A stretch of DNA of 36,845 nt from Planctomycetota bacterium (GTDB lineage Bacteria; Planctomycetota; Planctomycetia; Pirellulales; Pirellulaceae). Each line of letters starts with the position of its first letter. Positions within the stretch are counted from its first letter, which is position 1. Of this stretch, positions 7,354-29,082 are shown in pieces. Under the pieces are notes generated by a model. It saw only the letters and a list, made by a program, of their open reading frames with translations, did not search any database and had not been told where the DNA came from. The stretch is from contig JAGWWZ010000031.1 in NCBI GenBank assembly GCA_018970165.1, forward strand, positions 1 to 36,845, in the 5' to 3' direction. A program made the translations under genes and the position numbers.

Positions 7354-7357
7354 GAGG
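7354..7357 (+). promoter_or_regulatory. weak Shine-Dalgarno site favouring GTG 7363
   Basis: GAGG lies 5 nt upstream of the in-frame GTG at 7363. The earlier in-frame TTG at 7303 has no such site, so the shorter sigma-factor start is preferred. Confidence 0.4.
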
Positions 7358-7362
7358 CCATC

Positions 7363-7923: not shown

Positions 7924-7996
7924 TTACCTCGAGCAAGACCACTCCGCAACATTCAACAGACAACCCCACCAGTGAATCATCAAAACGGTAATAGCC

Positions 7997-10468: not shown

Positions 10469-11902
10469 CTAGTTTCTATTGACTCCCTGCAGAAGGGCTT
10501 GGATACCGAAGGTGAAGAAACTGCCTAGACCGAAGTTCAGGATTTCTTCACAAGGCTTGTATCGCAAGATGAGAGTGTCACCCGGTTGAACAAGTATTCG
10601 TTCTCTCGGGTCGAGATTCGCTTTGGCTAGGTCGACCTCGATAGTGATTTGCCCGTTGCATGGAGTCTTTCGCAACACGTACAGCACTCCCGGTGGCACA
10701 CCACCGATCGATCCGATGCCGAAGCCACCACCGCCACCTCCGCCGCCTCCCATGCCTTTGGAGCCCGCAATCGCCGATCCCGATAGAGCCATCGCGCCGA
10801 AGACATCAAGGTCATAGTCGCGAGGGATGATAAACTCGCCACCTGGCAGCAATCCACCGGTGTAGAAGACGTCGGCAGTTCTCGATTCGATGTAAACGAT
10901 ATCACCATCTTCGAGAATGATGTCCTCTTCGCGGAAGTTCGGAATCACTCCGGGAGGTAAACGCAAGGGAATCTTGAGAACGGTAGGGTCATCAGGAATT
11001 GGCGGAGGGCATCCGCAAGGATCTGGGTTGCAATAGTACTGCTGATAAAACTGTTGGATGAATGCATCCCGTTTCCTTTGGTCCGCTTTCGACGCCCGCA
11101 GAATCTTGACTTCGTTTCTAGCATTCACCCCAGGCAGGCCACCTGACGACATCATCGCATGGAGCACGTCGTTCTGATACGCCTTGAGCTTGATCAAACC
11201 ACCTTGGGCGCTGAAGTCAGAACCGCGAACGAATCCGCCTCTTGCCCCACCGCCGCCACCACCGCCACCACCACCGAAGCCTTGTTGCCCTTGGCCAACC
11301 TGACCACCTATGTCCTGACGTACAACGACAATGTTGAAGGTTCGCTCCTTAAGCAGGGTGACGATCGGGCGCAAACGATCCGAATCTGTAAGGATTTTGG
11401 CGTCGAGATAATACTTCCGAATCAGTTCTCGAGCCTGATCGACCGTGAGTCCTTTCACTTTGATCGGCGCGAGCAGCGGTAGCTGGATAGTACCGTCATT
11501 GATCACCGCAACGGGGAAGCCGAGCGACGGATCAAGTTGGCTGTCCGCTTCTGGGAAGTTCACTGGGGGTGGTTCAGGCGGTCGATCGGGAGGATTGTAG
11601 GGAAGGATCCCATCGATGTAGACGCCGAGAATGTCTCCTTCGTCGAGCAGGTATTCCCGAGGCGGTTCTTGGGCCAATCGCGACGGATCTAACGGGACCA
11701 AATTGGCTTTGGACTGCGCGAGGAATTGCGGGGGAAGACGCTGAGCCGGTATTCCCGAAATCGGTTGTGTGATCGTCGAGCATCCAGAACTCAATCCTCC
11801 GCCTAAGATCGCAACACCGATCCAGCAAAGGCGTTTCACTCTGGAAACCTGGCTTCCAATTGCAAGTCCTGCCTTCATGTATCGATTCCATCCTTGGGAC
11901 AT
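10469..11902 (-). CDS. polysaccharide biosynthesis/export lipoprotein (Wza-like)
   Basis: The protein has 477 residues. The signal peptide (VKRLCWIGVAILGG) ends in a lipobox LSSGC with the lipidated cysteine at 41. A poly-export (PES) domain follows at about 85-195 (YLLDEGDILGVYIDG, GTIQLPLLAPIKVKGLTVDQ, then AKILTDSDRLRPIVTLL). One SLBB-type domain spans about 230-340 (LIKLKAYQNDVLHAMMSSGG, then EDIILEDGDIVYIES) and another about 343-450 (ILVQPGDTLILRY). In the family these form an outer-membrane channel that exports capsule or exopolysaccharide. Poly-glycine runs interrupt it at about 209-219 and 384-393. GAGGA lies 7 nt before the ATG, which supports this start. The gene is 89 nt downstream of a small lipoprotein gene on the same strand, and the opposite-strand O-antigen-ligase-like gene fits a polysaccharide locus. 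No Wzc-type kinase gene is visible. Its 3' end converges on 10462 with 6 nt between stops. Confidence 0.88.
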   Translation of the reverse strand: MSQGWNRYMKAGLAIGSQVSRVKRLCWIGVAILGGGLSSGCSTITQPISGIPAQRLPPQFLAQSKANLVPLDPSRLAQEPPREYLLDEGDILGVYIDGILPYNPPDRPPEPPPVNFPEADSQLDPSLGFPVAVINDGTIQLPLLAPIKVKGLTVDQARELIRKYYLDAKILTDSDRLRPIVTLLKERTFNIVVVRQDIGGQVGQGQQGFGGGGGGGGGGARGGFVRGSDFSAQGGLIKLKAYQNDVLHAMMSSGGLPGVNARNEVKILRASKADQRKRDAFIQQFYQQYYCNPDPCGCPPPIPDDPTVLKIPLRLPPGVIPNFREEDIILEDGDIVYIESRTADVFYTGGLLPGGEFIIPRDYDLDVFGAMALSGSAIAGSKGMGGGGGGGGGFGIGSIGGVPPGVLYVLRKTPCNGQITIEVDLAKANLDPRERILVQPGDTLILRYKPCEEILNFGLGSFFTFGIQALLQGVNRN

Positions 11903-12971: not shown

Positions 12972-15725
12972 ATGCAAGTACTCGAACCCCGCTCAATACA
13001 TCTGAATCTCTTCACTGCACTCGTTGTCCAAGCACTAGCCATCGTCATGATGCTGCTGGCGCCCAGTTGGTACGGGTCTGCGACTTGGCAAGCCCAGCAG
13101 GTTCTTTTTGCACTTGGAATAGCATTAGCTGGATCTATGGCTTTTCATGTTGCAATCACGGCTGCACTTGGCGAAAAATGCGCAGCGCCAAATGCACTGT
13201 CGTGGACCTTGTTTGCCTTGGGTGGATTGGGGCTATTGCAATCTCAGCCCCTGTACACATGGGAGAACAGCGGCCTCTCTTGCCCGCCTTCGGTTGCCAT
13301 ACAGCGCTGGGCCTTGGGGAAAGCATCGGCACCAGCAGCCATCATCGAGGGGATGGTCTCAAACAATGCTAGCGCGATTGAGCAACTCCCGAAAGAGCAT
13401 TGCGCTCTGGGAGGGGTTCCCGAAGAGATGAAACAACTGTCGATGAGTGTCGAGCCGATGACCAGTCGAGGGGCGGCGGGGAGTTTGTTTTTAGCGGGAC
13501 TATTGGTATGGATTGGTAGTTCACTTTTTTCGCGTAGGAACCTTTACCCGATCTTGCTCGGATTTGCAGTTGTTCTGGGAATAGTGATCGCCTTGTTGGG
13601 GATTCTCAACGCCTTGATTCCTGGATCTCGGCAATGGATTGGCATGAGCGGTAACTCGTTTGCGACCTTTGTATCCAAGAATTCGGCTGGTGCATTCCTC
13701 AATGTCTCACTCGCGGCGGCTTGGGGGTTCGCGATTTGGACTTTCCATCGAGCTTGGAAAAGCAAGCGTCACAGTTCGCAACGGAAATGGCATGGCGCAT
13801 GGGAATCTGGGCCATTCGCCGTGGTACGAGAAGTTTTGGCAAAACTCGATGCGATTCAAATCGCTTCTATACTTGCAGTTGCATGGATTGCGACTTCGGT
13901 CTTTGTCTCTCTTTCGCGCGGCGCAGCGGTCTCCGCAATCGCTGCGGGACTCGCAACCGCCATATTGATCCTACCAGGCAAGCATCGGAACTTTGCGTTC
14001 TTTGGGGCTTTACTGGTAGCCGCTTTGGCGGTCGGATTGATGGTCTTTTTCCAATTGGATGAACAGGTTTCAACTCGATTCGAAAGCCTGGGTGAAATCG
14101 ACATGGAGACCGAAGCCGTTGGAGGCAGACTGTACATTTGGAATGTCAGTTGGCGAGCGGCTCTCTTCTACGGATGGCTCGGGAGTGGACTGGGCACTTT
14201 CCACTACTCTTCGCTACCCTTTCAGAGACCATCATCGACAGGCTGGTTTTATCACGCTGAGAGCATCTACTGCGAAGCGATCGTCACGATCGGCTATCTC
14301 GGGGTTATTGCAATTGCAGCCGCCATCGTTGGCTGTTTCTTTTCGCTCCGTTCGATCTATGTGTCCCGAAGATTCTCAGACTTCGCTCCAATGCTCACAG
14401 CTGGCATGTTTCTACTGCTGAGCCAAAGCATGCACAGCGCAGTCGACTTCGCGATGATCCTGCCGGGGGTTTACATTCCTACAGCTTTGCTCATGGGCGC
14501 CGCATTGGGTGGCTGCCCCGAATCGCTTAGGATCATCCAGAAACTCAAGCGCAAGAAAGAGGCAGGCTTGGAGGCGGCGAAGGAAGGCAATGGTCCCGAA
14601 ATGCAGCCGTCTTGGCTTCTCTCCATCGCATCGTTGGTGGTTGCATTGGGTTGTATGTTGATACTCAATCACTGCAGACAGGCTGCGATTCCACTCGCAG
14701 TAGCTGAATCTCTCGATCAGGACTTTCAGAAGCAGGACAAACTTGGAATCGAGGATCGCGAGGGCAATCGGGTGGAAAAATTGATCGAACAAGCCGCTCT
14801 AAGGGGAGTCACGATTGAAGATTCACCCCATCTCATGCGACTGGCAGCAAAAAGTATTTGCTTCGATGATCGCAGAAAGCAGTGGAAATCCCGAACGCCC
14901 GAATCGGATCCAAGACTCTCATGGACCGAAACGGACCCTTTCATCATTCGCCTCGCTTACGATCGCGTGGATGACGCAAATCGAGAAGCTTGGTTGCGCT
15001 CTATCGGCGGCGAAACCAGATTGGAATCGATTCGCAAAGCCAGTTCCCTTTACGCGAAGGCAAGAGCGCAATCACCTCTGGACTGGCATGCGCTCTGGGG
15101 GAATATTCATACCAGTCTGGATTGCTCAGCAACGGAGTTGGCTCGGTTTGCTCCTGTCGTGCAACGCACCAGCGGTCATCTGCCGCAACTGCTGACCTCG
15201 GCAGCTATCTTTTTCAATGATTGCCTATCTCAGGAGGATCGGGTTCGGCTATGGAAATCCACATTGCAAAGCTCTCCTGCCGCTTCGATCGACATCGGTC
15301 GACTCATGAGTTCGCAATTTGAGGACGAATCTGTCCCAGTCGAGATTTTTCCAGATAACGCGAACATACTGTACAGTCTGGCTAGAGAAGTGTTCACCAA
15401 GAAGGCTTTTCCCAAAACGCACGCAGTCCTTTGTCGTCGCGCGACCGATTCGGTTGCCTTGCAATCCAATCGCACCCCGTCAGCAACTGCACTTCTGCTG
15501 GCAGACATCGCGAGCGAGGCCGGGGATCCCGATTCGGAGATGAAACACCTTTCACTCTATCTGCAATACAAACCTGATGATGCGTTGACCTGGATCCGGC
15601 AGATCAATCGTCAAATCCAAATTGGGAATTGGGAAGATGCCGACCAAAGCCTTCGCAAACTGAAACAATTAGATCGTAAACACCCGGCGATCCCAGAGCT
15701 CTCAAAAAAGATCAATAGCCGATGA
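12972..15725 (+). CDS. O-antigen ligase/polymerase (Wzy_C-like) membrane protein with TPR-like C-terminus
   Basis: The protein has 917 residues, with about ten or more membrane helices in the first 500. The Wzy_C/WaaL-like region (about 300-450) shows the SRGAAVSA helix, the extracytoplasmic loop segment GGRLYIWNVSWRA and GSGLGTFHY, and the conserved His428 in WFYHAESIYCEAIVTIGYLG. In this family a His and Arg in the large periplasmic loop act in glycan transfer or polymerisation from undecaprenyl diphosphate. The region after residue 520 is soluble and alpha-helical with repeated helix-turn-helix spacing (SLYAKARAQSPLDWHALWG, ALLLADIASEAGD, HLSLYLQYKPDDALTWI), resembling TPR repeats. It is divergent from the Wza-like operon, so a role in the same surface polysaccharide is probable. 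Polymerase versus ligase cannot be separated by sequence. Confidence 0.8.
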   Translation: MQVLEPRSIHLNLFTALVVQALAIVMMLLAPSWYGSATWQAQQVLFALGIALAGSMAFHVAITAALGEKCAAPNALSWTLFALGGLGLLQSQPLYTWENSGLSCPPSVAIQRWALGKASAPAAIIEGMVSNNASAIEQLPKEHCALGGVPEEMKQLSMSVEPMTSRGAAGSLFLAGLLVWIGSSLFSRRNLYPILLGFAVVLGIVIALLGILNALIPGSRQWIGMSGNSFATFVSKNSAGAFLNVSLAAAWGFAIWTFHRAWKSKRHSSQRKWHGAWESGPFAVVREVLAKLDAIQIASILAVAWIATSVFVSLSRGAAVSAIAAGLATAILILPGKHRNFAFFGALLVAALAVGLMVFFQLDEQVSTRFESLGEIDMETEAVGGRLYIWNVSWRAALFYGWLGSGLGTFHYSSLPFQRPSSTGWFYHAESIYCEAIVTIGYLGVIAIAAAIVGCFFSLRSIYVSRRFSDFAPMLTAGMFLLLSQSMHSAVDFAMILPGVYIPTALLMGAALGGCPESLRIIQKLKRKKEAGLEAAKEGNGPEMQPSWLLSIASLVVALGCMLILNHCRQAAIPLAVAESLDQDFQKQDKLGIEDREGNRVEKLIEQAALRGVTIEDSPHLMRLAAKSICFDDRRKQWKSRTPESDPRLSWTETDPFIIRLAYDRVDDANREAWLRSIGGETRLESIRKASSLYAKARAQSPLDWHALWGNIHTSLDCSATELARFAPVVQRTSGHLPQLLTSAAIFFNDCLSQEDRVRLWKSTLQSSPAASIDIGRLMSSQFEDESVPVEIFPDNANILYSLAREVFTKKAFPKTHAVLCRRATDSVALQSNRTPSATALLLADIASEAGDPDSEMKHLSLYLQYKPDDALTWIRQINRQIQIGNWEDADQSLRKLKQLDRKHPAIPELSKKINSR

Positions 15726-15882: not shown

Positions 15883-16734
15883 ATGGCACGTCGAATTTTG
15901 CCCACGGTAGCGATGATCGCATGCTTAGCATGGATCGGCTTCGCGATTTGGGCCGTTGCCCAAGGCCCGATGCGACGATCCAGAAATCGAGATTGGCAAG
16001 GGGCCGGCCGCGGTGAAGTTCCGAGTTGGGAAGTCGACCCGAAATTCATCAAGGATACATTCACCTTCGTTCGCATCCGATACGACAACCATCCCTACCG
16101 TCGCGGCTACGGTTGGGCTACCGACTTTCGAGACAGCGAACTCAACTTTTCACTGCGACTTCAACAACTCACGACCCTCAAGGTGAACCCCGAGCCGATC
16201 GTTCTCCAGTTGAACGACCCTCGCCTGTTCGATTATCCGTTCATCTACATCATCGAACCGGGAGCTCTGATGTTCCATGAAGACGAAGTCAAAGCCCTCC
16301 GCAACTATCTGCTCCGAGGAGGCTTTCTCCTAGTCGATGATTTTTGGGGTGATGACGAATACGAAAATTTCTACCAAGAGATCAAACGTGTATTTCCGGA
16401 TCGAGAACCGCAAGAGGTTCCGCTCGAACATGAAATCTTCCACTGCGTCTACGACTTGAAAGAGAAACCACAGCTCCCGTCGATTCACGCTGCTTGGCAA
16501 GGGCGTCAGTCCGGCGTTTTTTGGGAATATCGCCCTGGTTCCGATACCAGCATCCCTCACTATCGCGCTATCTACGACGATGCAGGCCGAATCATGGTAT
16601 TCATCTGCCACAATACCGATCTGGGTGACGGCTGGGAACGCGAAGGAGAAGATCCTTGGTACTTCGAAGAGTTCTCTGTTAAGAAAGCCTATCCCATGGG
16701 GATCAATATCGTGACCTACGCCATGACCCACTGA
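15883..16734 (+). CDS. DUF4159 domain-containing protein
   Basis: The protein has 283 residues, with an N-terminal signal or membrane helix at about 5-26 (LPTVAMIACLAWIGFAIWAV). The DUF4159 domain follows from about 60: FTFVRIRYDNHPYRRGYGW, DFRDSELNFSLRLQQLT, then RLFDYPFIYIIEPG, LRNYLLRGGFLLVDDFWGDD and VPLEHEIFHCVYDLKEKPQL. The fold is related to class I glutamine-amidotransferase-like proteins, without a visible Cys-His catalytic pair. In planctomycetes and related phyla it regularly accompanies MoxR genes. It is the first gene of the operon, 59 nt upstream of the MoxR gene. Its molecular role is unknown. Confidence 0.9.
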   Translation: MARRILPTVAMIACLAWIGFAIWAVAQGPMRRSRNRDWQGAGRGEVPSWEVDPKFIKDTFTFVRIRYDNHPYRRGYGWATDFRDSELNFSLRLQQLTTLKVNPEPIVLQLNDPRLFDYPFIYIIEPGALMFHEDEVKALRNYLLRGGFLLVDDFWGDDEYENFYQEIKRVFPDREPQEVPLEHEIFHCVYDLKEKPQLPSIHAAWQGRQSGVFWEYRPGSDTSIPHYRAIYDDAGRIMVFICHNTDLGDGWEREGEDPWYFEEFSVKKAYPMGINIVTYAMTH

Positions 16735-16793
16735 ATCCTTCCTACGCTTCGCAGAACCAGATTTCCGACATCCACCCCATAAAGACCCCATCG

Positions 16794-17792
16794 ATGCAAC
16801 AACTTGATCTCGAAAACGATGACGCGCAACTGGTTGAGCAACTGCAAACGGGTCGAACCCATATCGAACGCGAACTGGCAAAAGTCATCGTCGGACAGAA
16901 ACCGGTCATCGAGCAGCTTCTGATCTGCCTCTTCTCCGGCACCCATTGTTTGATCACCGGGGCACCCGGACTGGCAAAGACCCTCTTGGTCCGAAGCGTC
17001 GCCCAAGTATTCCACCTTGATTTCCAACGGATCCAGTTCACGCCAGACCTTATGCCCGCCGACATCACCGGAACCGAAATTCTGGCCGAAGTCGAGGGAC
17101 GCCGTAGTCTGCAATTCCTACGAGGCCCAATCTTCGCCAATGTGATCCTTGCCGACGAAATCAACCGCACTCCCCCGAAAACCCAATCGGCACTGCTCGA
17201 AGCGATGCAGGAGCATCAAGTCACCGCTGCTGGCAAACGGTATCCTCTCCCGGAACCGTTCTTCGTGTTGGCGACTCAAAACCCGATCGAGATGGAAGGA
17301 ACCTACCCTCTTCCCGAAGCGCAGCTCGATCGATTCATGTTCAATGTTTTGATCGATTACTTGCCCTACAAAGATGAACTGCAAGTCGTCCTCGAAACCA
17401 CCAGCCGCACGCCGCAGAAGATCGAACCTCTCTTCAGGGGCGAAGACATACTTCGATTCCAAGGACTCGTGCGCCGTATGCCGATCGCCGAGGAAGTCGC
17501 TGGCTATGCCGTACGCTTGGCCGCCGCAACTCGAGCAGGACGAGAACAAGCTCCGGACTTCATCAATCAATGGGTGACCTGGGGGGCCGGACTTCGAGGC
17601 GCGCAAATGCTCGTGCTGGGTGCCAAAGCTCGAGCGCTGATCAACGGACAATCCCACGTCCGCCATGAAGACATTCGCGCCCTAGCGGCACCCGTGTTCC
17701 GACATCGCATCCTGATGTCCTACAAGGCAGAAGCCGAAGGTGTCACGGTCGAGGATTGTATTGCTCGACTTCTTGAGGAAGTCCGCCCGTGA
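16794..17792 (+). CDS. MoxR-family AAA+ ATPase
   Basis: The protein has 332 residues and a complete MoxR core: Walker A GAPGLAKT at residues 56-63, the pre-sensor segment QFTPDLMPADITGTE (81-95), Walker B VILADE at 117-122 followed by INRTPPKTQSALLEAMQEHQ, sensor 1 ATQNP at 160-164, and the arginine-finger region EAQLDRF near 180. The C-terminal helical lid extends to residue 332. MoxR proteins are chaperone-like ATPases that mature or remodel VWA/MIDAS partners, usually encoded next door, as here. The stop overlaps the next start in GTGA, showing translational coupling. Confidence 0.97.
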   Translation: MQQLDLENDDAQLVEQLQTGRTHIERELAKVIVGQKPVIEQLLICLFSGTHCLITGAPGLAKTLLVRSVAQVFHLDFQRIQFTPDLMPADITGTEILAEVEGRRSLQFLRGPIFANVILADEINRTPPKTQSALLEAMQEHQVTAAGKRYPLPEPFFVLATQNPIEMEGTYPLPEAQLDRFMFNVLIDYLPYKDELQVVLETTSRTPQKIEPLFRGEDILRFQGLVRRMPIAEEVAGYAVRLAAATRAGREQAPDFINQWVTWGAGLRGAQMLVLGAKARALINGQSHVRHEDIRALAAPVFRHRILMSYKAEAEGVTVEDCIARLLEEVRP

Positions 17793-18730
17793 GCCAACTG
17801 CAGTCACCTCGCGAACCATGGATCGACATGAAAACCCTGATGGCGATCCAGGACCTCCCCTGGCGGGCAAGAACGCTGGTCGATGGCCTCAACGCAGGCT
17901 TGCACCGCAGCCCACTCCATGGGTTTTCCGTCGAGTTCAGCGAGTATCGCCCTTTCAGCCAAGGGGACGACCCCCGAACCATCGATTGGAAACTCTACGC
18001 ACGGTCCGATCGTTACTACGTTAAAAAGTTCGAGGACGAAACCAACCGTCGTTGCTATCTGGTCGTCGATCAAAGCCGCTCGATGAGCTACGGCTCGATT
18101 CCTTACAGCAAACACGACTACGCCCGAACACTCGGGGCAACGCTGTCCCTTCATCTGATTCGCCAACGCGACGCAGTTGGGTTACTCACCTTCGATGAAT
18201 CGGTCAAAGAAATTGTCACGGCCCGATTTCGCCATGGTCAATGGAAACGAATTCTAGGGTTGCTGGACCGGGAACCATCGGGAAATCAAACCGATATCGC
18301 AAAACCATTGTCGGATGTCGCGCAATTGGTATCGCAGCGCAGTCTGGTGATCGTTCTTTCGGACTTCTTGGTCCCCATCGAGTCTCTGCGCGTTCCGCTC
18401 GGCCTGCTTCGAGCTCGACGTCATGAAGTCGTGCTGATGCGAATCCTCGATCCACGCGAAATCGATTTCGATTTTGATCAAGCCGCCATGGTTCGCGATG
18501 CGGAAACCGAGCGAGAGATCTTCGTCGATCCCTCGGTTGCCAAGCAAAATTACCTTGAGCGATTTCAAGCTCACCAAAGAGACTTGAAATCTCTTTGCGA
18601 ATCGGCTGGCATCGGTATCGAAACCCTGCGCACCGATCAACCTATGGACCAAGCTTTGGTCCGTTTCCTATCGCAACAACAACGGCGTGGGACATCTCGC
18701 AACCAACCCTCTGAGGTTGGCTCGCCATGA
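17789..18730 (+). CDS. DUF58 domain-containing protein
   Basis: The protein has 313 residues. The DUF58 signature is clear at about 41-85: SPLHGFSVEFSEYRPFSQGD, DPRTIDWKLYARSDRYYV, then KKFEDETNR. The following VWA-like part has a MIDAS DQSRS at 94-98. DUF58 proteins are the usual partners of MoxR ATPases. It starts at GTG inside the GTGA overlap with the MoxR gene, and ends in an ATGA overlap with the next gene. There is no signal peptide or membrane helix, so it is cytoplasmic or peripheral, between the ATPase and the membrane VWA proteins. Confidence 0.95.
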   Translation: MSQLQSPREPWIDMKTLMAIQDLPWRARTLVDGLNAGLHRSPLHGFSVEFSEYRPFSQGDDPRTIDWKLYARSDRYYVKKFEDETNRRCYLVVDQSRSMSYGSIPYSKHDYARTLGATLSLHLIRQRDAVGLLTFDESVKEIVTARFRHGQWKRILGLLDREPSGNQTDIAKPLSDVAQLVSQRSLVIVLSDFLVPIESLRVPLGLLRARRHEVVLMRILDPREIDFDFDQAAMVRDAETEREIFVDPSVAKQNYLERFQAHQRDLKSLCESAGIGIETLRTDQPMDQALVRFLSQQQRRGTSRNQPSEVGSP

Positions 18731-20775
18731 ACTTTCTCAGCCCCCTGTACGCTGCAGCCGCACTCGCGATCGCTGTTCCCATCCTGCTTCACTTGGTCAG
18801 ACGACAACCCAAAAACAGGCTCGCATTCAGTTCGCTTCTGTTTCTCTCGGAAACTCCTCCGCGATTGACGAGAAACAGTCGCATCGAAAACTGGTTTCTC
18901 CTCTTACTGAGATCCCTCCTGTTGCTGATGATTGCATTTGCATTCGCGAGGCCCTATTGGAGCGAAGCGGTGAATACAACCGCCAGTTCGGCTGCGGGCA
19001 AGCGAAAGTGCATCCTCATCGACCAGAGCGCTAGCATGCAGCGCGACGGTGTGTGGAAAAACGCGATTGGACAAGCTCGCGAAGTGATTCAAAGCGCCCT
19101 CCCCACCGACACGATCGCTGTTTACGGATTCGATTCGCAACTCCATTCTGTCCTTCCTCTTTCGCAAGCTCGCAGTCTACCGATCGGCAAAAGATCCTCA
19201 TCCGCTCTATCCGCGATTGACTCGCTCAATCCCTCTTGGTCGCCATCGGATCTCGGCACAGCAATTGTCACCTGCCTCGACACACTTCAAGTGGATAGCG
19301 CGGACAACGAAGAAACCCACTCTGGACATGCGGAAATCATCATCATTTCCGACTTGACTATCGGTTGCGATGTTCGCGCATTGGAACAGGGCGAATGGCC
19401 CGAGGATACTTCTGTGCAATTGATACGCGCGGTTCCTAGCAAACCGGGGAATGCGTCGTTTGTTCTCCTCGATCCTACCGACCCGACCAATGAATCGGGG
19501 GAATATCGAGTCCGCGTCTCGAACGCTCGCGATTCCGTTCCCGAGTCATTTCAACTTCGATGGTTAAACAAAGACGGCAACGGTATCCAAGAAACCTCGG
19601 TCGAATGCACGGTTCCTCGAGGCTCCTATCGCATTGTGAAATGTTCGCCTCCGCCCGAGGCGGCTTCGGGAATCGAACTAATTGGAGATGATTGTCCATT
19701 CGATAACCGACGATTTCTCGTGATGGATCCTCCGTCTCCTTCGATGATCGGCATTGTCGAAGAGGATGGACTTCCCCCCGAGGAGTCACTCGCCTATTTC
19801 TTGGAACGGATTCCCCTGGATACTGCCTATCGCAAAGTGCAGCTACAACGCTACAAGCCCGGTTCGGATTGGCTCAGCGAGCAGAGCAAGAGCCCTGCAT
19901 GGATCATCTTGTCTCATGCTGCAACACTTCGCGATGCCGATCAGTGTCGCAGCGTTCTGCAGGCTGGCGGTTATGTCACTTTGGTGATGGATCGTCCCGC
20001 CAATTCCCCACACCGCGACGGGGGAACTCTCGGGGATCAGTTGAAAAAAATAACAAGTCGGTGCACCGAAGTTGAGATCGGCGCAGTTTCGGAACGCAAG
20101 GTGCGAGAGTTCGATTTTCTGCAGCGGCTTGAGTTCGGGCACCCAATCCTCGCACCCCTTGCGAATTCGCAATTCAACGATTTTTCAAAGGTTCGGTTTT
20201 GGCGGCATCGTATGATTGAAGGTTGGGAGTTTTCCGACTGGCGAGTCTTGGCATGGTTCAGCGAAAACCATCCTGCCATCTTGGAACGAGATGCACAAAA
20301 GGGGAAGTTTTCCGTCATGACCTTCGGTTGGCAGCCTGTGGAGAGCCAGTTGGCATTGTCGAGCAAGTTTGTGCCGTTGATCGCCGGATTTTACGCCCAG
20401 GCCCAACCGGATACGGGGGCACGCAGGGAATGGATCGCCGGAAGCGATCGCGCTCCCAAACCCGGCATCTACAGCGACCCACAGGATTCCGATGAATCCA
20501 GGAAGGTTGCGGCCAATATCGACCCCCGCGAGAGTTTGACCGATCCGTTGGATCCCTCCGAATTGACCCGCTATGGAGTCCCACTGGCATCGGATCAACC
20601 CTCCGAACAAATCACAAACCAACGGGAGCGAGTGTTGGTTGCCGCAGAGTTGGAAGCTCGTCAGGCATGGTGGTGGTGGCTCGTCTCTGCCTGCCTCATA
20701 GCAGTGGGCTTGGAATCGTTGTTATGCTGGAGTAGATCTGCCACCGCGCCCTCGCTGAGTTTGGCCAAGGAGTAG
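18727..20775 (+). CDS. BatA-like membrane protein with VWA domain
   Basis: The protein has 682 residues. The N-terminal double-membrane-helix domain (BatA N-terminal type) has helix 1 at about 5-23 (LYAAAALAIAVPILLHLVRR) and helix 2 at about 57-74, with RLAFSSLLFLSETPP and the conserved ARPYW following. A VWA-like domain starts at about 93 (KCILIDQSASM) with MIDAS D99, S101 and S103. A large extracytoplasmic region follows, and one more helix lies near 655-675 (a WWWW-rich segment). Aerotolerance-type Bat proteins act with MoxR in envelope maintenance. It overlaps the DUF58 gene in ATGA and is 4 nt before the next gene, whose AAGGAG (20767-20772) lies in its own last codons. Confidence 0.9.
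   Translation: MNFLSPLYAAAALAIAVPILLHLVRRQPKNRLAFSSLLFLSETPPRLTRNSRIENWFLLLLRSLLLLMIAFAFARPYWSEAVNTTASSAAGKRKCILIDQSASMQRDGVWKNAIGQAREVIQSALPTDTIAVYGFDSQLHSVLPLSQARSLPIGKRSSSALSAIDSLNPSWSPSDLGTAIVTCLDTLQVDSADNEETHSGHAEIIIISDLTIGCDVRALEQGEWPEDTSVQLIRAVPSKPGNASFVLLDPTDPTNESGEYRVRVSNARDSVPESFQLRWLNKDGNGIQETSVECTVPRGSYRIVKCSPPPEAASGIELIGDDCPFDNRRFLVMDPPSPSMIGIVEEDGLPPEESLAYFLERIPLDTAYRKVQLQRYKPGSDWLSEQSKSPAWIILSHAATLRDADQCRSVLQAGGYVTLVMDRPANSPHRDGGTLGDQLKKITSRCTEVEIGAVSERKVREFDFLQRLEFGHPILAPLANSQFNDFSKVRFWRHRMIEGWEFSDWRVLAWFSENHPAILERDAQKGKFSVMTFGWQPVESQLALSSKFVPLIAGFYAQAQPDTGARREWIAGSDRAPKPGIYSDPQDSDESRKVAANIDPRESLTDPLDPSELTRYGVPLASDQPSEQITNQRERVLVAAELEARQAWWWWLVSACLIAVGLESLLCWSRSATAPSLSLAKE
20767..20772 (+). 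promoter_or_regulatory. Shine-Dalgarno site before 20780
   Basis: AAGGAG lies 7 nt before ATG 20780, within the final codons of the BatA-like gene, fixing this start and coupling the two genes. Confidence 0.65.
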
Positions 20776-20779
20776 GAAT

Positions 20780-23700
20780 ATGGATCCTCAAATCGAGTAT
20801 TTCCTGGCGAGAGTTGCACAGCGTTTCCGCAGCCGGCGTTGGGCATGGTGTTTGAGTCTCCTTTGGCTAGCGCTCGCACTTGCGATCGGAGCCGGATGGA
20901 TTTCAATCCCCGCGCTTGAGGGTCTTTCGTGGAGGTCATGGGCGACTCCGCTAGGTATCGTGTTTGCGGGTTTCGTGGTTTCGTGGTTGTACTCGCGCTG
21001 GTCCCATCGGGATCTTCGTGCGATGGCATCTCATGTCGAACGGGCATTTCCTACGCTCGAACAGCGATTGCTGACCAGTGCCAATACTTCGACAGATAGC
21101 TCCCCCTATTTCCGTCGTCGCTTGGCACAGGATGTGATCCGACACGCCCGATCACACGATTGGAAGCAGGCTCTTTCGCCATTCCAATTTTGGGGAGCAT
21201 GGATGCTTCAGTGGCTTGCTTTTTTGTGTTTAGCGATGCTGGTATCCATGGGTTGGAATCCCTCCTTGGGCAAACTGCTTCCAAGTGGTGCAGCGGATGC
21301 GATCTTCGGTCCATCCGATCGTTGGCAAGTAGAGCCAGGCGATATCGAGGTGGAGCGAGGTAGCGATTTATTTGTGACCCTGCGATTTGAGCAACAACGA
21401 TCCGAACGGATCGATCTCGATGCGAAACTGATCCTCGAGAAACCGGATGCTCGCGAAATGTTGGCGATGGCACGCTCTCTGGGTGATTCGATCTTTGGAG
21501 CAGCGGTACGTCGCGTTGAGGATTCCTTTCAATACCGTGTCGAAGTGAGTGGGCAATCGAGTCCCACCTACCGTGCGACCGTCTTTGAATATCCCGCCTT
21601 AGTCCGATGCGATGCACTGATCGAGCCTCCATCGTACGCTCGCCAACCGGAAAAACGGATCGAGGATACACGCCGTGTCACCGTCCCTGAAGAGACAAAA
21701 TTGACTTGGATCTGCACTCTCAACAAACCTATCGATATCGCCGAACTCGTCGACGAAGATGATATCGCAACCCCATTGGTAGCCGAGTCTGAGAACAGCA
21801 GCATCTATCGAGCGACTTTCACGATGAAGAAATCGAAGAAGTGGAAGATTCGCTTAATCGATCGCGATGGTCGCCGTGCGAAGATTGAGGAGCAACTGTC
21901 CGCTCGCGTCCTTCAGAACAAGCCATCAGCCATTCAATTGGGACGGCCCGCGGATCAGCGAGTGTCTCCCATTCAGGAGATCGATCTTACCGCAACGTTG
22001 ACCGACGACTTTGGTATCCGCAAAGGGGGATTGACCTACTCGCTCTCTGGCCAAGAACCTCGCGAGATCGTGCTTCTCGATGCACCGGAATTGTCTTCCA
22101 TGGCTCTCAAGGAAGAGGTCTCTTACTCACTCGCATTAGAGGATCTGAATGCGCAGAGCGATCAGTTGCTCTCGTATTATTTCTGGATGGAGGATCTCGA
22201 CAACAACGGAAACCCGCGCCGAACGGACGGCGACATGTTCTTCGCGGAGGTCAGACCTTTTGAGGAGTTGTTCCGCCAAGGGGATAATGCATCATCGAAT
22301 CAGCAACAATCGCAACAAAGCCAGGGTTCACAAGCCTCGGGTATGGCTGAAGAACTTGGCGAGCTTCAGAAGAAAATCATCACAGGCACTTGGAATACGA
22401 TTCGCGAATTCAACGTCAAATCGAATGAGGAGCGACGAACCTCGGTCGACGTATTGCTCGAATCGCAACAACAAGCGCGATCCCAGACGGATGCTCTCTC
22501 GCAAGCGATCCAAAGTGAGGATTCTCAAGGCATTCTTCAGCAAATCCAGCAGTCGATGGACGATGCGATCGAGAAACTCAATCAGGCGAAACAGGATTCG
22601 TCATCGGATTCACTCAGACAAGCGATGCAGCAGGAGCGTACCGCCTATGAGGGTCTCTTGAAACTCCGAGCACGGGAGTTCGAGGTCAACCAGTCCCAAC
22701 AATCGCAATCTTCGAGCCAATCGCAATCGCAAAGTCAGCGTTCTCGACAGCAGCAGATCGAGCAATTGAAACTGGAGAACGATGAGAATCGCTATGAGAC
22801 GGAAAGCCGTCCGGAAACCAACGAGGATGCCGCGCAGCGCGAGATGCGTCAGGTGATGAACCGCCTCGACGAACTCGCCCGCCGCCAGCAAGATCTCAAC
22901 GAACAATTGCGAGAGTTGGACCTCGCCCTTCAAGAAGCCAAAACCGAAGAGGCAAAGAAAGAGATCGAGGAGCAACTCAAACGTCTGCGAGATAGCCAGC
23001 AGGAGTTGCTGCAGGACACCGATGAGTTGCTTGACCGTATGAATCGCGAGAGCAATCAGCAAAGCATGCAGGAATCGCGAGAACAAATGGAACAAGCGCG
23101 AGAACAATTGCGGGAATCTTCCGAAGCCATCGAGCAGCAGCAACCATCGTCCGCACTCGCGTCCGGATCGAGAGCACAACAGACGATGGAACAGACACGG
23201 GAGTCCCTGCGCCAGCAGTCTGCATCCGGCTTGCAAGAGAATATGCGTGAACTACTCGAACAGGCCGACTCTCTGGAGCGACGGCAACAACAATTGGAAC
23301 AACGCATGCCAGGTCGCCCCGCTGACGATGCAACACCTCGTCCCGAAGATGACACAAACCCACCGAATCAAAACTCCGTCCTCAGACCCGAAGCCTCAAC
23401 CGAAGCGGATGACTCGCTCGCCAAGGATTGGCAACAACAGCGTCAGGCACTCGAAGAGCTTCTTGAGAACGTGAAGGAAACAGTCACCGAATCGGAGACG
23501 AGCGAGCCAGTGCTCGCCGAGGAACTTTACGAGACTTATCGACAAGCCCAACGCGAACAACTCGGCGAACGCTTGGAAAAAACATCGCAGTTGCTCGAAC
23601 GAGGTTTGGATGAACCCGCTCGAACACTCGCAGACCAAGCCGGCCAGGGAATCCGCCGTCTCCGAGAGCAAATCGAGCAATCCTCCGAAAGCGTACTCGG

Positions 23701-24526
23701 CAGCGAACAACAGTCCCTCAACCGGGCCCTGCGAGAACTCGATCGCGCCCGAGAGGCTCTGCAACCCGAAAACGAATCTGCCGATCCCCAGGGTTCCAAT
23801 CCCCGGGGTTCAGATTCCGAAGAAGCCGAATCAGAGCGACCTAGCGGTCAACAACAAGAAGGTCAACAACAAGAAGGTCAACAACGTGAAGGCCAACAAC
23901 GTGACGGCCAACAACGCGACGGCCAACAACGCGACGGCCAACAACGCGACGGCCAGCAACGCGACGGCCAGCAACGTGAAGGCCAACAACGCGACGGCCA
24001 ACAACGCGACGGCCAACAACGCGACGGCCAACAACGTGAAGGCCAACAACGCGACGGCCAACAACGTGACGGCCAACAACGTGACGGCCAGCAGCGTGAA
24101 GGTCAGCAGTGGGGCAACCAGCAGCGAGCCGAGACCGGCCGCTCCCTTGGACCATGGAATATGGAACTCCCGATGGGGCCTCTGCTCGGCGAGGAGTATC
24201 AAGAATGGAATGATTCGATTCGAGAGGTTGAGGAATTGGTTCGCGATCCGGAACTCAAGGCCGAGGCGGCTCGCATCCGCGAGGCGGCTCGGGAAATGAG
24301 GATCGAGTACAAGCGGCATTCCAAGGTGCCTCAGTGGCCGTTGGTCGAACGATTGATCACGCAACCCATGGATCAATTGCGAGGTCGAATCGCACAGGAA
24401 CTGCTTCGCAAAACCGCAGAAAAGAATCAGATCGTTCCTCTGGATCGCGATCCTGTTCCTCGCCAATTCCAAAAGGCGCTCGACAGTTACTTTGAGCGCC
24501 TCGGGTCCGAGAGTCCCAAGCCATGA
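20780..24526 (+). CDS. giant coiled-coil membrane protein with pentapeptide repeat (DUF4175-like)
   Basis: The protein has 1248 residues. There are three membrane helices near the N-terminus (about 19-41, 51-74 and 137-159). The loop between helices 2 and 3 has [18 protein letters not shown], matching in place and pattern the 1532-4957 protein. A beta-rich extracytoplasmic region spans about 180-480 ([19 protein letters not shown]). A very long Gln/Glu/Arg-rich coiled-coil region spans about 500-1000. Seventeen GQQ(Q/R)(E/D) units fill 1023-1107. A C-terminal helical domain begins at about 1120 ([20 protein letters not shown]). Such proteins are known in planctomycete MoxR operons; the molecular role is unknown, but a periplasmic scaffold is plausible. 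Its stop overlaps the next start in ATGA (24523-24526). Confidence 0.88.
23846..24100 (+). repeat. 15-bp tandem repeat, 17 units, coding for GQQ(Q/R)(E/D)
   Basis: Seventeen in-frame 15-nt units of the form GG(C/T)CA(A/G)CA(A/G)CG(C/T)GA(C/A) encode GQQQE x2, [10 protein letters not shown] x5, [10 protein letters not shown] x3, [10 protein letters not shown] x3, GQQRE. The last degenerates into GQQWG. Three-to-one alternation of RD and RE units points to higher-order duplication of about 60 bp. The frame is always preserved. Confidence 0.95.
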
Positions 24527-26895
24527 TGTTGTTGGCGGATTTGGTATTCGCGCGGCAGGCTTGGTTGCCGTGGGCTTGGGGATTCGGCGCAATTCTGCTG
24601 ATCCTGTCCCTGCTGTCGTACCGCAAGAGCGCCATGCCACTGCAGATGCGTTGCCTCGCGCTGCTGCTTCGTTCGTTGGGTATCGGTTTGCTTCTTTTTG
24701 CCTGGCTGGAACCGATGTCCAGTAGGGAGCAGCCCAAGCCTCAAGCCAACTCGCTGTTGGTAGCGGTCGATAACAGCAACTCGATGAAAGCCTTGGTGAG
24801 CAACAGCGATGAAGAAGCGTTTCGATCCTTAATCGCCGATGACGCATCTTGGCTCGTGAATGCAACGGAAACCTATCGCGTCCGGAAGTATCTCTTCGAT
24901 AGTGAAGTTATTCCAACCGACTCTCTCACTTCATGGACGGGTGAAGGGAGCAGTTCCTCGCTGGACCGGTCTCTCAAAAATCTTGCAACACGTTATCGCG
25001 ATCAACCGGTAGCGGGGATCATTCTCGTGACCGATGGGCGATCGACCGATCCCGCCGATGCGATGAAACGACAGCTTGTGCGAGAAACGGGTGGACAGAT
25101 ACCTATCTTCCCAGTACGTATCGGCGCACTTCGCACGCTGCGCGATCTGAAGATCGACTCGGTCTCGGTCCTACAATCGGAATTCGAAACCGCACCAGTG
25201 ACGATGACCGCGGAGGTCTCCCACGTTGGTTTCTCCGGTGAGGAAGCAGAGGTAGAACTCAAGGATACCGCTGGCAAAACAATCGACAGCAAGAAGGTAT
25301 CATTGTCCGCCGATCGGCCCACGGCGAAAGTCGAGTTTCGATTTCGTCCAGAGCAGAGTGGCGTAACAGCCTACGAGCTGGTTGTTAAACCATCCGACCC
25401 GAACTCCCTCGACTCGAAACCGGAAATCACCCAGAGCAACAATCGACGCTTTCAAGTCGTCGATCGAGGCATGGGCCCCTATCGGATCTTGTATTTGGCG
25501 GGTCGACCGAATTGGGAATACAAGTTTCTTCGCCGCGCACTCGATGAAGATGCGGAGTTATCCCTGACCTCATTGATCCGTATCGCCAATCGTGAGATGA
25601 AATTCAGTTTCCGAAGCTCCAAAATGGATTCGACGAACCCTCTGTTCTCCGGCTTTGAAGATGTCTCCGACGATGAGAAGCAACAATACGACGAGCCGGT
25701 TTATGCACGACTGGGAGTTCGCAACTCTGGGGAATTGCAAAAAGGATTTCCAAAAGATGCCGAGGAGTTGTTCGAATATTCTGCGTTGATCATCGATGAT
25801 TTGGAGCATCAGTTCCTAACGCTCGACCAGCAGCAATTGATCCGCCAATTCGTCGCGGTTCGCGGTGGTGCGTTGCTTGCACTCGGTGGCCAAGAGAGCA
25901 TGCGAGGGACGGAGTTTCGGGACTCGGTGTTGGGCCAGATTCTCCCCCTTTACGGAGACTCTTCGCCGGTTTCAACGAGCGTTCCGGAATTGTTTCAGGA
26001 GTCGCCGGAAAAGTTGCGGTTTCAATTGACGCGCGAGGGGTGGTTGCAACCTCCCATGAGGTTAGCGGATAACGAGACTGCCGAACGTAAACGATTGGAA
26101 GCGATGCCTGAGTTTCAAGTCTTCAACCGCACCAGTCGGCTCAAGCCAGGGGCATCGATCTGGATCGAAGGAGAGGTAGGGGAAGGGGAACGGATTCCTG
26201 TTTATATCTCGCAGCGTTTTGGACGAGGCAAATCCGCAGCCTTCATGCTCGGCGATTTTTGGCGATGGGGACTCAAGTATGAAGGGGAAGATCGAAGCCC
26301 CGTCTACCAAGCGTGGAGGCAAATGATACGTTCAGCTATCGCTGACGTTCCCAAACCGATCTCGATTGATCCATCGATCTCGGACGATAACCCTCGACTT
26401 GCCCGAATCCTCGTGCATGTGGCGGGTCCTGATTTTCAATCGGTCGACAATGCCCAGGTCCAAGTTGCCTTTCAATATCCGGATGGACGAAAGGTGGACG
26501 CTGTTGCTCAGCCTTCATCGCAAACCGCTGGCGACTATGAAACCGAGGCGGTCATGAGCGATTCCGGAGTCTATATGGCTACCGCAACGGTCGCCGGGCC
26601 GGACGGTTCCGCAATGGGGACCGCAACCGCAGGATGGGTGTACGAACCCGAAGCAACGGAAATGGCTCGACTCGGAATCGATGAAGACAAACTGCAGCGT
26701 TTGGCAGAGACCAGTGGCGGGAGTATTCTTTCGCCATCGCAACTGCAGTCGCTGGCCAATTGGATGCCGACCGATCGCGTCCCGATCAAAGAGATCCGGA
26801 CTTATCCATTGTGGCACGCCCCTTGGGTGATCGGATTAGCCATCGGCGCGCTGATGCTCGAGTGGTGGATAAGGAGACGCTATGGTTTGGCGTAA
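24523..26895 (+). CDS. membrane VWA protein with glutamine-amidotransferase-like domain
   Basis: The protein has 790 residues. The N-terminus has two membrane helices (about 15-33 and 45-62). A VWA-like domain follows from about 78 (LLVAVDNSNSM), MIDAS D83-S85-S87, with TDGRSTDPADAM later. A class I glutamine-amidotransferase-like region runs over about 320-490 (LAGRPNWEYKFLRRAL at about 325, then LIIDDLEHQFLTLDQQQ, GGALLALGGQESM). A C-terminal membrane helix (WVIGLAIGALMLEWWI) closes the protein. No catalytic Cys is evident at the GATase nucleophile position, so this domain is likely binding rather than catalytic. It is coupled to the giant protein by ATGA, and its end overlaps the C13-like gene by 14 nt. 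Confidence 0.88.
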   Translation: MMLLADLVFARQAWLPWAWGFGAILLILSLLSYRKSAMPLQMRCLALLLRSLGIGLLLFAWLEPMSSREQPKPQANSLLVAVDNSNSMKALVSNSDEEAFRSLIADDASWLVNATETYRVRKYLFDSEVIPTDSLTSWTGEGSSSSLDRSLKNLATRYRDQPVAGIILVTDGRSTDPADAMKRQLVRETGGQIPIFPVRIGALRTLRDLKIDSVSVLQSEFETAPVTMTAEVSHVGFSGEEAEVELKDTAGKTIDSKKVSLSADRPTAKVEFRFRPEQSGVTAYELVVKPSDPNSLDSKPEITQSNNRRFQVVDRGMGPYRILYLAGRPNWEYKFLRRALDEDAELSLTSLIRIANREMKFSFRSSKMDSTNPLFSGFEDVSDDEKQQYDEPVYARLGVRNSGELQKGFPKDAEELFEYSALIIDDLEHQFLTLDQQQLIRQFVAVRGGALLALGGQESMRGTEFRDSVLGQILPLYGDSSPVSTSVPELFQESPEKLRFQLTREGWLQPPMRLADNETAERKRLEAMPEFQVFNRTSRLKPGASIWIEGEVGEGERIPVYISQRFGRGKSAAFMLGDFWRWGLKYEGEDRSPVYQAWRQMIRSAIADVPKPISIDPSISDDNPRLARILVHVAGPDFQSVDNAQVQVAFQYPDGRKVDAVAQPSSQTAGDYETEAVMSDSGVYMATATVAGPDGSAMGTATAGWVYEPEATEMARLGIDEDKLQRLAETSGGSILSPSQLQSLANWMPTDRVPIKEIRTYPLWHAPWVIGLAIGALMLEWWIRRRYGLA
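26871..26876 (+). promoter_or_regulatory. Shine-Dalgarno site before 26882
   Basis: AAGGAG lies 5 nt before ATG 26882 inside the end of the preceding gene. It confirms the start and the 14-nt overlap. Confidence 0.7.
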
Positions 26896-27859
26896 GGTGC
26901 TGCTCGCTTGTTTGCTGGTCCAAGCATGGACGACGAGTATACTTCTGGCCCAAGAAGCGCCTCGCGATCGACGCATGTGTGTGGTGCTCGGAGCCGCGGG
27001 AGAGTCGCAATATGGTGACGCGTTCAGAACCTGGGGCTCTCGTTGGCAACAAGCGGCGAGCGGTTTTGACTTTACAATGATCGATGGAACGGACGATGCG
27101 CAAACGGGTGACACGCTAGCGCATCGAGACGCGATCATGCAATGGATCTCGAGGGCCGATCCGAGCGTACGTGAGCATTGGCTGATCTTCATTGGGCATG
27201 GCACGCACGATGCAAAGACCACTCGCTTCAATCTGAAGGGCCCGGATATATCGGCGATCGACCTCGGAAAATCACTCAACGGGAAACCCGGGAAATGGGT
27301 CCTGATCTTTTGTTCCTCTGCTAGTGCGCCGTTTCTTTCGGCCGTGTCGGGAGCGGATCGTGTTGTGATTACCGCAACCAAGAGCGGGTCCGAAGAAAAC
27401 TATTCACGCTTCGGCGATTTCCTGTCGCAGAGTCTGAGCGATGACCAGGCCGACATGGACCACGATCGGACCGTATCGGTTCTCGAGTTGTTTCTCGCCG
27501 CCAGTCGTCGCGTTGAGAGATACTATGCCGAGCAAAGCCTACTGGCTACTGAACAGTCACTCCTGGACGACAACGGAGATGGTCGAGGAACACCGGCTGT
27601 GTTTTATCGGGGAGTCCGTGCGGTCAAGGCTCCAACCGAGGGTGCATCTTTGGATGGCGAAGCTGCCCGGCGAATCGTTCTGTCCCGAAACGGGCCTTCC
27701 CTATCTCGAGAGAACGAGGACAGGATCGCGGCGATCGAGTCCGCGATCGAAGCACTTCGTAGCAAAAAGACTGACATGGATATCGATTTCTACTATGACG
27801 AACTCGAGAAACTTCTTGTGCAGCTCGCAGGTTACCTCCAGCAGAACCAAAATCCTTGA
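26882..27859 (+). CDS. secreted clan CD (C13/caspase-like) cysteine peptidase-like protein with EF-hand-like loops
   Basis: The protein has 325 residues. A signal peptide (KVLLACLLVQAWTTSILLAQ) ends near residue 24. A caspase/legumain-type core is visible: strand CVVLGAAG, then WLIFIGHGTHD with candidate catalytic His106, then WVLIFCSSASAPF with candidate Cys144, then VVITATKSGSEENYSRFGDF. The His-Gly and Cys-Ser-(Ser/Ala) pair in this order and spacing is characteristic of clan CD. Two acidic loops, DMDHDRTVSVLELF (191-204) and DDNGDGRGTP (229-238), resemble calcium-binding EF-hand/dockerin loops. The C-terminal 60 residues are helical. It is the last gene of the MoxR operon. Substrate and activity are unknown. 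Confidence 0.75.
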   Translation: MVWRKVLLACLLVQAWTTSILLAQEAPRDRRMCVVLGAAGESQYGDAFRTWGSRWQQAASGFDFTMIDGTDDAQTGDTLAHRDAIMQWISRADPSVREHWLIFIGHGTHDAKTTRFNLKGPDISAIDLGKSLNGKPGKWVLIFCSSASAPFLSAVSGADRVVITATKSGSEENYSRFGDFLSQSLSDDQADMDHDRTVSVLELFLAASRRVERYYAEQSLLATEQSLLDDNGDGRGTPAVFYRGVRAVKAPTEGASLDGEAARRIVLSRNGPSLSRENEDRIAAIESAIEALRSKKTDMDIDFYYDELEKLLVQLAGYLQQNQNP

Positions 27860-27925: not shown

Positions 27926-29080
27926 GTGGGAATCAATCATTCTCTAGCAACGACAATGCTGCTAGGAGCACTCGTGGCGGCGTCCCATGGTTGTGCATCC
28001 AAGAAGATCGAACCTGTATCCGCCCCGCCACCGGAAGTTACGGTAGCACTCCCTATTGCACGGCCGGTAACCGAATTCTACGAGTACATCGGACGCACGC
28101 GAGCACCGCAGCGAGTCGACGTTCGGTCTCGCGTCACAGGATATCTAACCAAGATTCATTTCGAGGACGGAAAAGAAGTCCAGGTAGGTGAGCCTCTTTT
28201 CGAAATCGATAATCGTCCGTATCAGTATGCTTTGGAAACCGCGCAGGCACGGCTGCAGCAGGCCGAGGCTCAACTCAAGTTGTCGAATCAATTGCTAGAG
28301 CGCAATAAGAGCTTGGCCAATACCAACGCGGTCTCTCAGCAAGATCTGGACGATGCCGTGCAGCGACAAGCCAGCGCGGTGGCGGAATTGAATGCATCCA
28401 AAGCCGCGATCTCTCAAGCGAAGCTCGATCTCGAATTCTGTAGCATCACCGCGCCGATCGCCGGTCGGCTTAGCCAAACCAATATCACCGTAGGCAACCT
28501 GATCGGATCCACGCAATCGGAATCAACACCTCTGACCACGATCGCGAGCGTCGATCCGATTCATGTTTTGTTCGATGTTGACGAAGCGGCGGTCCTGCGA
28601 TTCCGCGAGATGCGTCGCGAGCAGGGTGACGATGTCCAATTTACGCACGTGCGAGAACTGAATCAGAAAATCCTCGTCGGCCTCTCGAACGAAACCAATT
28701 TCCCCCATGAAGCGATCCTCGACTTTGTCGATAACGAAGTGCGAACAACGACAGGGACACTCTTAGTTCGTGCGGAGCTTCCGAACAAGGATCGATTCTT
28801 TGCGCCTGGCATGTTCGTTCGAGTTCGGATTCCCATTGGACGCCCGGTCGATTCCCTTCTCGTTCCCGACCGGGCAATCTTGAATGATCAAAGCCTCAAA
28901 TATGTGCTAGTGGTCGACAGCAATAATCTAGCTCAGCGTCGAGATGTGGAGTTGGGAACTTTAGATAATGGACTTCGCGTGATCCGGCGCGGCATCGAAG
29001 CGACCGATCGCGTGATCGTCAACGGCATTCAGCGGGCCCGCCCCGGAGCCAAGGTCAATCCAGGGACGGAGCGGAACTAG
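27926..29080 (+). CDS. RND efflux periplasmic adaptor (membrane fusion protein)
   Basis: The protein has 384 residues. The signal segment (LATTMLLGALVAASHGC) ends in a weak lipobox with Cys23. A biotinyl-lipoyl half-domain follows (VDVRSRVTGYLTKIHFEDGK, then VGEPLFEIDNRPY at about 83-95). A helical hairpin at about 95-170 (ALETAQARLQQAEAQLKLSN, AVSQQDLDDAVQRQASAVAE) is followed by the second lipoyl half (FCSITAPIAGRLSQTNITVG), a beta-barrel domain (DPIHVLFDVDEAAVLRFRE) and a membrane-proximal C-terminus. It links the inner-membrane pump encoded 2 nt downstream to an outer-membrane channel that is not encoded in this window. Confidence 0.95.
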   Translation: MGINHSLATTMLLGALVAASHGCASKKIEPVSAPPPEVTVALPIARPVTEFYEYIGRTRAPQRVDVRSRVTGYLTKIHFEDGKEVQVGEPLFEIDNRPYQYALETAQARLQQAEAQLKLSNQLLERNKSLANTNAVSQQDLDDAVQRQASAVAELNASKAAISQAKLDLEFCSITAPIAGRLSQTNITVGNLIGSTQSESTPLTTIASVDPIHVLFDVDEAAVLRFREMRREQGDDVQFTHVRELNQKILVGLSNETNFPHEAILDFVDNEVRTTTGTLLVRAELPNKDRFFAPGMFVRVRIPIGRPVDSLLVPDRAILNDQSLKYVLVVDSNNLAQRRDVELGTLDNGLRVIRRGIEATDRVIVNGIQRARPGAKVNPGTERN

Positions 29081-29082
29081 CC

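Follow-up and report, generated by a model that had tools for sequence, protein, structure and literature searches.

A conserved seven-gene MoxR-VWA operon of Planctomycetota ends in a caspase-fold protein without a conserved nucleophile cysteine

An operon of seven genes in a planctomycete contig brings together a MoxR AAA+ ATPase and three VWA proteins and ends in a protein with the fold of a caspase. Gene order, co-occurrence, the ATPase motifs, the MIDAS motifs of the three VWA proteins, the caspase fold and its lack of a conserved nucleophile are all results of direct computation. On balance, we lean slightly towards reading the seven genes as one conserved MoxR-VWA machine of the inner membrane and periplasm, in which the caspase-fold subunit would be catalytically dead. 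Little is understood of MoxR-VWA operons although they are widespread, and an additional subunit that stays constant provides a handle on what such a machine holds.

The window (the whole stretch of DNA analysed, 36,845 nucleotides) carries the MoxR-VWA operon at positions 15883-27859, where the list of open reading frames and their translations gives seven + strand genes, in the following order:

15883-16734, + strand: DUF4159 protein, 283 aa (Pfam PF13709, 5.9e-56; PDB relative 4i66, 8.1e-8)
16794-17792, + strand: MoxR AAA+ ATPase, 332 aa (Pfam AAA_3, 1.9e-63; Walker A and B present)
17789-18730, + strand: DUF58 protein with a VWA domain, MIDAS D94-S96-S98, T168 and D192 (Pfam DUF58, 3.5e-46)
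18727-20775, + strand: BatA-like membrane protein with a VWA domain, MIDAS D99-S101-S103 (Pfam BatA, 7.6e-16; TIGR02226, 1.2e-20)
20780-24526, + strand: DUF4175-like membrane protein, 1248 aa (partial Pfam DUF4175 match, 1.2e-9, residues 275-439)
23845-24090, + strand: 15-nt tandem array of 16.4 copies inside the DUF4175-like gene (TRF)
24523-26895, + strand: gene 6, VWA/GATase1-like membrane protein, 790 aa (AlphaFold pLDDT 84.3, profile match, MIDAS)
26882-27859, + strand: gene 7, caspase-fold protein, 325 aa (AlphaFold pLDDT 91.6, Foldseek, hhalign, conservation)

The junctions from gene 1 to gene 7 measure +59, -4, -4, +4, -4 and -14 nt. Promoter-like and terminator-like sites showed no excess over shuffled sequence, and the limits of the operon are therefore drawn from gene order and from flanking regions that vary between relatives. 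An earlier note on this DNA had described a tightly joined seven-gene operon with MIDAS motifs in three products, and had staked it on conservation of gene order. Both descriptions hold: the seven same-strand reading frames keep their order in relatives, and the DxSxS motif of the DUF58, BatA-like and gene 6 products is retained in the relatives' alignments.

The comparison of gene order was made on 38 relative loci, chosen from the gene 7 search matches for having enough contig on either side, and 26 of them contain all seven genes in identical order and on the same strand. This is far beyond chance, and chance clustering is rejected. The remaining 12 loci are incomplete: six carry the DUF4175-like gene with genes 6 and 7, three carry genes 6 and 7, one lacks only DUF4159 and two have gene 7 alone. 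From 569 confirmed relatives the best 80 were taken, a sample that therefore favours near relatives, and in 75 of these loci gene 6 precedes gene 7 by at most 1 kb; of the other five, two start at a contig edge and three (L154, L193 and L211) have no neighbouring gene 6. Gene 7 was likewise seen with no gene 6 nearby in L081 and L087. Judging by their titles, sixteen of these 80 loci are verrucomicrobial, and the rest of the set includes planctomycete loci. The seven genes were also found together on a 1.1 Mb replicon of Gemmatirosa (Gemmatimonadota), in a circularly permuted order: gene 6, gene 7, DUF4159, MoxR, DUF58, BatA and DUF4175-like. At this locus gene 7 is split over two overlapping reading frames (21 and 216 bits), DUF4159 lies within a 958-aa reading frame, and the DUF4175-like frame extends past the end of the stretch.

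Within a set of 60 genomes of relatives, the window's own genome included, gene 7 was found in 39 (E<=0.001) and an ortholog of gene 6 (E<1e-100) in 38, each of which also has gene 7; the 22 genomes lacking gene 6 include one, G026, in which gene 7 is matched in part. Orthologs of DUF4159 (E<1e-80) occur in 36 of the 60 genomes, 35 of which also have gene 7, the sole exception being the fragmented genome G004, and four genomes (G005, G007, G025 and G050) have gene 7 without a DUF4159 ortholog. Co-retention does not depend on adjacency in three single-contig genomes in which only these three genes were sought: in G006 and G032 DUF4159 is remote from genes 6 and 7, and all three genes are mutually apart in G036, with all of them present in each case. 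Over the phylum, gene 7 occurs in 33 of 294 genomes (E<=0.001). Strong matches, taken as E<1e-50 for gene 7 and E<1e-80 for gene 6, single out one identical group of 21 among the 294, a coincidence with a naive probability of 1.6e-32 when kinship is ignored. In these phylum genomes gene 6 was scored from three candidates per genome only. The other 12 genomes have only weak gene 7 matches and no gene 6 at the 1e-40 limit; when eight of them were read by profile, seven showed a gene 6 relative near gene 7 and one (L106) gene 7 alone. In one genome, G120, relatives of gene 6 (best 3e-50) occur without any match to gene 7. With its members retained together so strictly, the partner set lends itself to direct tests.

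Distant and second copies show more varied arrangements. Of 11 such loci (L106, L107 and L117-L125), eight have a relative of gene 6 in the neighbourhood of gene 7; a DUF4159 gene stands between the two in L121, L124 and L125, and gene 7 is the sole member of the seven families in L106 and L123. The second gene 7 copy of G005 heads a second MoxR operon. The caspase-fold gene was also seen within further MoxR-DUF58-BatA operons: it comes first in L122, and in L117 it sits between gene 6 and DUF4159. The association may have been rearranged more than once. A plasmid tblastn search for wider relatives returned two records for each of two queries.

Two features place the ATPase among the MoxR proteins, namely the AAA_3 domain with its Walker A and B motifs and the neighbouring VWA/MIDAS proteins (DUF58, BatA and gene 6). 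Its GxPGxAKT and ADEINR motifs are invariant in all 42 aligned sequences, and hydropathy gives it no membrane segment. The DUF58 protein has one borderline segment (residues 186-204) and a highly conserved MIDAS (DxSxS in 59/59, T168 in 58/59 and D192 in 59/59). In the BatA-like protein, for which no PDB sequence match was obtained at E 0.1, DxSxS is kept in 65/65 and hydropathy points out two N-terminal hydrophobic segments and one C-terminal one. The DUF4175-like protein has two hydrophobic segments, followed by a long C-terminal part rich in Gln, Glu and Arg that probably forms a coiled coil; the tandem array in its gene encodes GQQR(D/E) pentapeptide units, and may vary in length between strains. 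The DUF4159 protein starts, like gene 7, with an export-like segment (residues 8-26, a signal peptide or an anchor). VDDFWG is conserved in 28/28 of its aligned sequences, and so is CHNTDLGDGWE, except for L247 (26/28). The invariant Cys-His-Asn-Thr-Asp (C242-D246) and VDDFWG look like parts of an active site, and the protein may have an activity of its own. This topology agrees in part with the periplasmic assembly around a giant scaffold that had been suggested: by hydropathy the set is largely periplasmic, it has a large Gln-rich member, and its end protein is exported and has a clan CD fold.

Gene 6 required profiles and a structural model, Pfam giving only sub-threshold matches to VWA_3, YtkA and GATase1_like. 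A profile of 33 proteins matched the solved GATase1-like structures 3soz, 2gk3 and 3rht (4e-9, 7.8e-8 and 1.6e-5) over approximately profile positions 406-570, with a fourth match to 2ds4 (0.0099) at positions 639-688. The AlphaFold model (pLDDT 84.3) contains two N-terminal helices, then VWA-like, beta-rich and GATase-like parts and a C-terminal helix, the domain names being assigned by reading secondary structure. Hydropathy gives two N-terminal membrane segments. A whole-chain Foldseek search was uninformative, with multi-domain glycosidases on top at TM ~0.1. The MIDAS DxSxS is largely maintained (Asp in 102/103, middle Ser in 101/103, last Ser in 89/103). At what is presumably the nucleophile elbow of the GATase-like part, located by eye, gene 6 reads G-G-Q-E-S, and among the printed residues 2 of 103 sequences have Cys at one of these positions.

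The last gene has no Pfam match above the cut-off. Searched against PDB sequences, its profile (A1) yielded three chance matches (E 0.54-0.92), and folds were compared for this reason. The AlphaFold model, built with 49 sequences, has a pLDDT of 91.6 and a pTM of 0.86, and Foldseek against the PDB places it in the clan CD caspase fold: the best match is caspase-7 (E 6.7e-7, probability 1.00, TM by query ~0.4), and all 50 matches listed are caspases, MALT1 or a metacaspase. Remote homology was measured against a yardstick of 15 C14 domains from relatives. In hhalign, a 130-row gene 7 alignment reached E 1.6e-7 (93.9% probability) and the 49-row alignment A2 reached E 3.3e-5 (72%), and of five column-shuffle controls four scored E 0.4-0.83 while the fifth returned no row. 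The family was aligned at three sizes, with 46 sequences, with 130 (some genes fetched twice) and with 122 after removal of repeats and addition of Gemmatirosa. The protein has a hydrophobic N-terminus (residues 6-24) and two C-terminal helices (276-294 and 301-323).

Two acidic elements of gene 7 are strongly conserved, an EF-hand-like loop at residues 191-202 (117/122) and an acidic loop at 229-233 (119/122). These loops would fit a different role for the operon, devoted to maturing a single periplasmic enzyme or respiratory complex, with gene 7 handling Ca2+. The literature credits MoxR proteins with the maturation of particular complexes, and MoxR acts in this way on methanol dehydrogenase. 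However, an EF-hand-like segment was seen by eye in five of the 15 C14 controls as well (L214, L220, L224, L227 and L229) and is not special to the gene 7 family; cation binding would thus be ancestral. No client gene was identified, the neighbours of relatives having been scanned for the window's own families only, and we consider a maturation factor of this kind unlikely.

The question of catalysis turns on the nucleophile position. A D-A/C-C motif is present in 14 of the 15 C14 controls, and we take its second Cys to be the catalytic one. In the register given by profile alignment, the GHG histidine corresponds to His106 of gene 7 and the catalytic Cys to residue 145, which is Ser in the window protein. 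Among 122 members this residue is Ala in 62, Ser in 27, Thr in 13, Gly in 9, Phe in 8, Asn in 2 and His in 1, and is never Cys (0/122), although His106 and Ser148 are each kept in 121/122. Residue 146 is Ser in 107/122, Cys in 2 and Ala, Pro or Gly in 13. The preceding residue, 144, is Cys in 91/122, including the window protein; nevertheless 27 members (18 close and 9 distant) have no Cys anywhere in 143-148, and the Gemmatirosa protein is likewise without one. On a tree computed with these columns left out, the state of Cys144 changes 14 times (an approximate count, as the tree was made by FastTree only), and those of His106 and Ser148 change once each. No conserved Cys-His dyad of an active clan CD peptidase was found in the family.

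These counts weigh against an active clan CD peptidase that would be controlled or assembled by the MoxR-VWA part and would cut with Cys144, or with a Ser at 145 or 146, together with His106. The caspase fold, the near-invariant histidine, the frequent Cys144 and the export-like N-terminus would suit such an enzyme, but the position aligned with the catalytic Cys never holds one, neither Cys144 nor Ser146 is constant, and more than a fifth of the family has no Cys in 143-148; we regard an active peptidase as improbable. With Cys144 in most members and in the window protein, part of the family may still be cysteine enzymes. The simplest reading of the sequences is a pseudoprotease, in which the acidic loops appear constrained in place of the Cys position. 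The shape of a caspase without the cutting residue suggests that the fold has been reused as a building or binding part. The earlier note had called this protein C13-like, a clan CD peptidase-like member of a possible proteolytic-activation machine. The clan assignment is upheld by fold and by profile homology to C14, and the peptidase part of it is not, for want of a conserved nucleophile Cys; the C13 label finds no match to PF01650 in gene 7 or in its own genome; and proteolytic activation sits badly with a family that keeps its histidine while position 145 is never Cys and the stretch 143-148 is free of Cys in 27 of the 122 members.

Several described systems resemble the operon in part. 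Prokaryotic metacaspases (Peptidase C14) share with gene 7 the fold and remote sequence homology, but their catalytic Cys is replaced in the gene 7 family, and Pfam C14 has no match in gene 7 or anywhere in its own genome. Partial loss is on record, since 64% of planctomycete metacaspases keep the dyad according to the part of the literature available. The Bat operons of Bacteroides (aerotolerance), Leptospira and Borrelia cluster MoxR, DUF58 and BatA-type VWA genes, and the window operon has the same co-directional MoxR-DUF58-BatA order. In the available accounts, however, Bat operons carry BatD, TPR and SH3 members, whereas the window has DUF4159, DUF4175-like, VWA/GATase and caspase-fold genes; none of the seven products matches BatD or TPR models in Pfam at E 0.05, so that this is no Bat operon in the strict sense. 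The four-gene cmdA-D operon of Rhizobium leguminosarum (RL3499-RL3502), in which mutation reportedly affects membrane integrity and cell shape, likewise links a MoxR gene (RL3499, MRP subfamily) to further genes; the consulted portions of papers citing it mention no caspase-like gene, and the likeness is drawn from their descriptions.

In words, the nearest described systems are the MoxR-vWA conflict systems (Kaur et al., 2020; PMC7159879), ternary systems that combine MoxR with vWA and in some cases caspase-superfamily domains, yet their companions differ. A defence role with the caspase-like protein as effector is very improbable: caspase effectors do accompany MoxR and vWA in such systems, planctomycetes are among their hosts, as far as the available text goes, and the window MoxR matches bpMoxR, the Pfam model of one of these systems (PF20030, 41.2 bits, cut-off 27), but AAA_3 outscores it by far over that stretch (212.6 bits), none of the seven products has a PADLOC match at 1e-3, the gene set is constant and co-retained where effectors are variable, the caspase fold is exported and degenerate, and DUF58, BatA and DUF4159 have no occurrence in the main text of PMC7159879. 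A third component of the ternary type (VMAP, iSTAND, FtsH or beta-propeller) was not recognised among the seven by Pfam and PADLOC, the flanks having been scanned in part.

The seven-gene set is described neither in the full-text literature searched, with subscription papers mostly outside it, nor in the consulted portions of PMC7159879, PMC3893208, PMC5118466, PMC5700661, PMC3501461 and PMC7481262. The same full-text literature gave no mention of MoxR together with DUF4159 or DUF4175, or of DUF4159 alone; DUF4175 appears there in one Acinetobacter envelope paper. An undescribed function, as first proposed, thus stands for this particular set in the literature searched, but not for similar MoxR-DUF58-BatA operons, for which phenotypes have been published.

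Returning to the machine that we favour, we envisage MoxR as a cytosolic ring, with the DUF58 VWA protein as its probable link to the membrane-bound BatA, DUF4175-like and VWA/GATase proteins. To judge by hydropathy, the VWA domains and the long parts of these membrane proteins would lie in the periplasm, together with the exported DUF4159 and caspase-fold proteins. MoxR proteins are chaperone-like ATPases with VWA partners, and the VWA domain of the Borrelia BatA-type protein BB0173 faces the periplasm, as stated in the available parts of the respective sources. The hydropathy profiles and the orientation of BB0173 are the reasons for proposing a cytosolic motor that acts through DUF58 on a mostly periplasmic membrane complex. 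ATP hydrolysis may remodel a periplasmic client or complex and thereby keep the envelope sound, an envelope role suggested by the parallel to cmd in Rhizobium. The product of gene 7 would use its old peptide-binding fold, and perhaps cations bound to it, for holding on to a client or partner without cutting it. More tentatively, and at rather less than even expectation, we propose that the caspase fold serves as a non-cutting, cation-dependent binding subunit that is obligate in a trans-envelope AAA+ machine of Planctomycetota, Verrucomicrobiota and Gemmatimonadota. Kept as an unvarying companion of an AAA+ ATPase that apparently does no cutting itself, the caspase fold would here have a non-proteolytic use in bacteria.

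The surroundings of the operon contain several further genes. An ORF of 1141 aa at 1532-4957 has no Pfam match and a weak DUF4175-like score (19.6 bits), and reaches 79 bits to the profile of the giant DUF4175-like protein, of which it is possibly a distant relative outside the operon. At 7303-10462 a Sigma-70 factor gene is followed by a YfbK-type VWA protein, a further VWA gene beyond the seven. Two more genes sit beside the operon, one on the - strand for a polysaccharide export protein (10469-11902) and one for an O-antigen ligase-like protein (12972-15725). On the other side, an HlyD-type efflux adaptor and an RND-like pump (27926-32388) start 66 nt past gene 7; none of the relative loci that were read showed the adaptor, and the two are therefore probably a separate unit. 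The window's own genome contains nine further MoxR paralogs (E below 1e-50), two of which have DUF58 and BatA-like neighbours and three more DUF58-like ones, two of these scoring under 40 bits.
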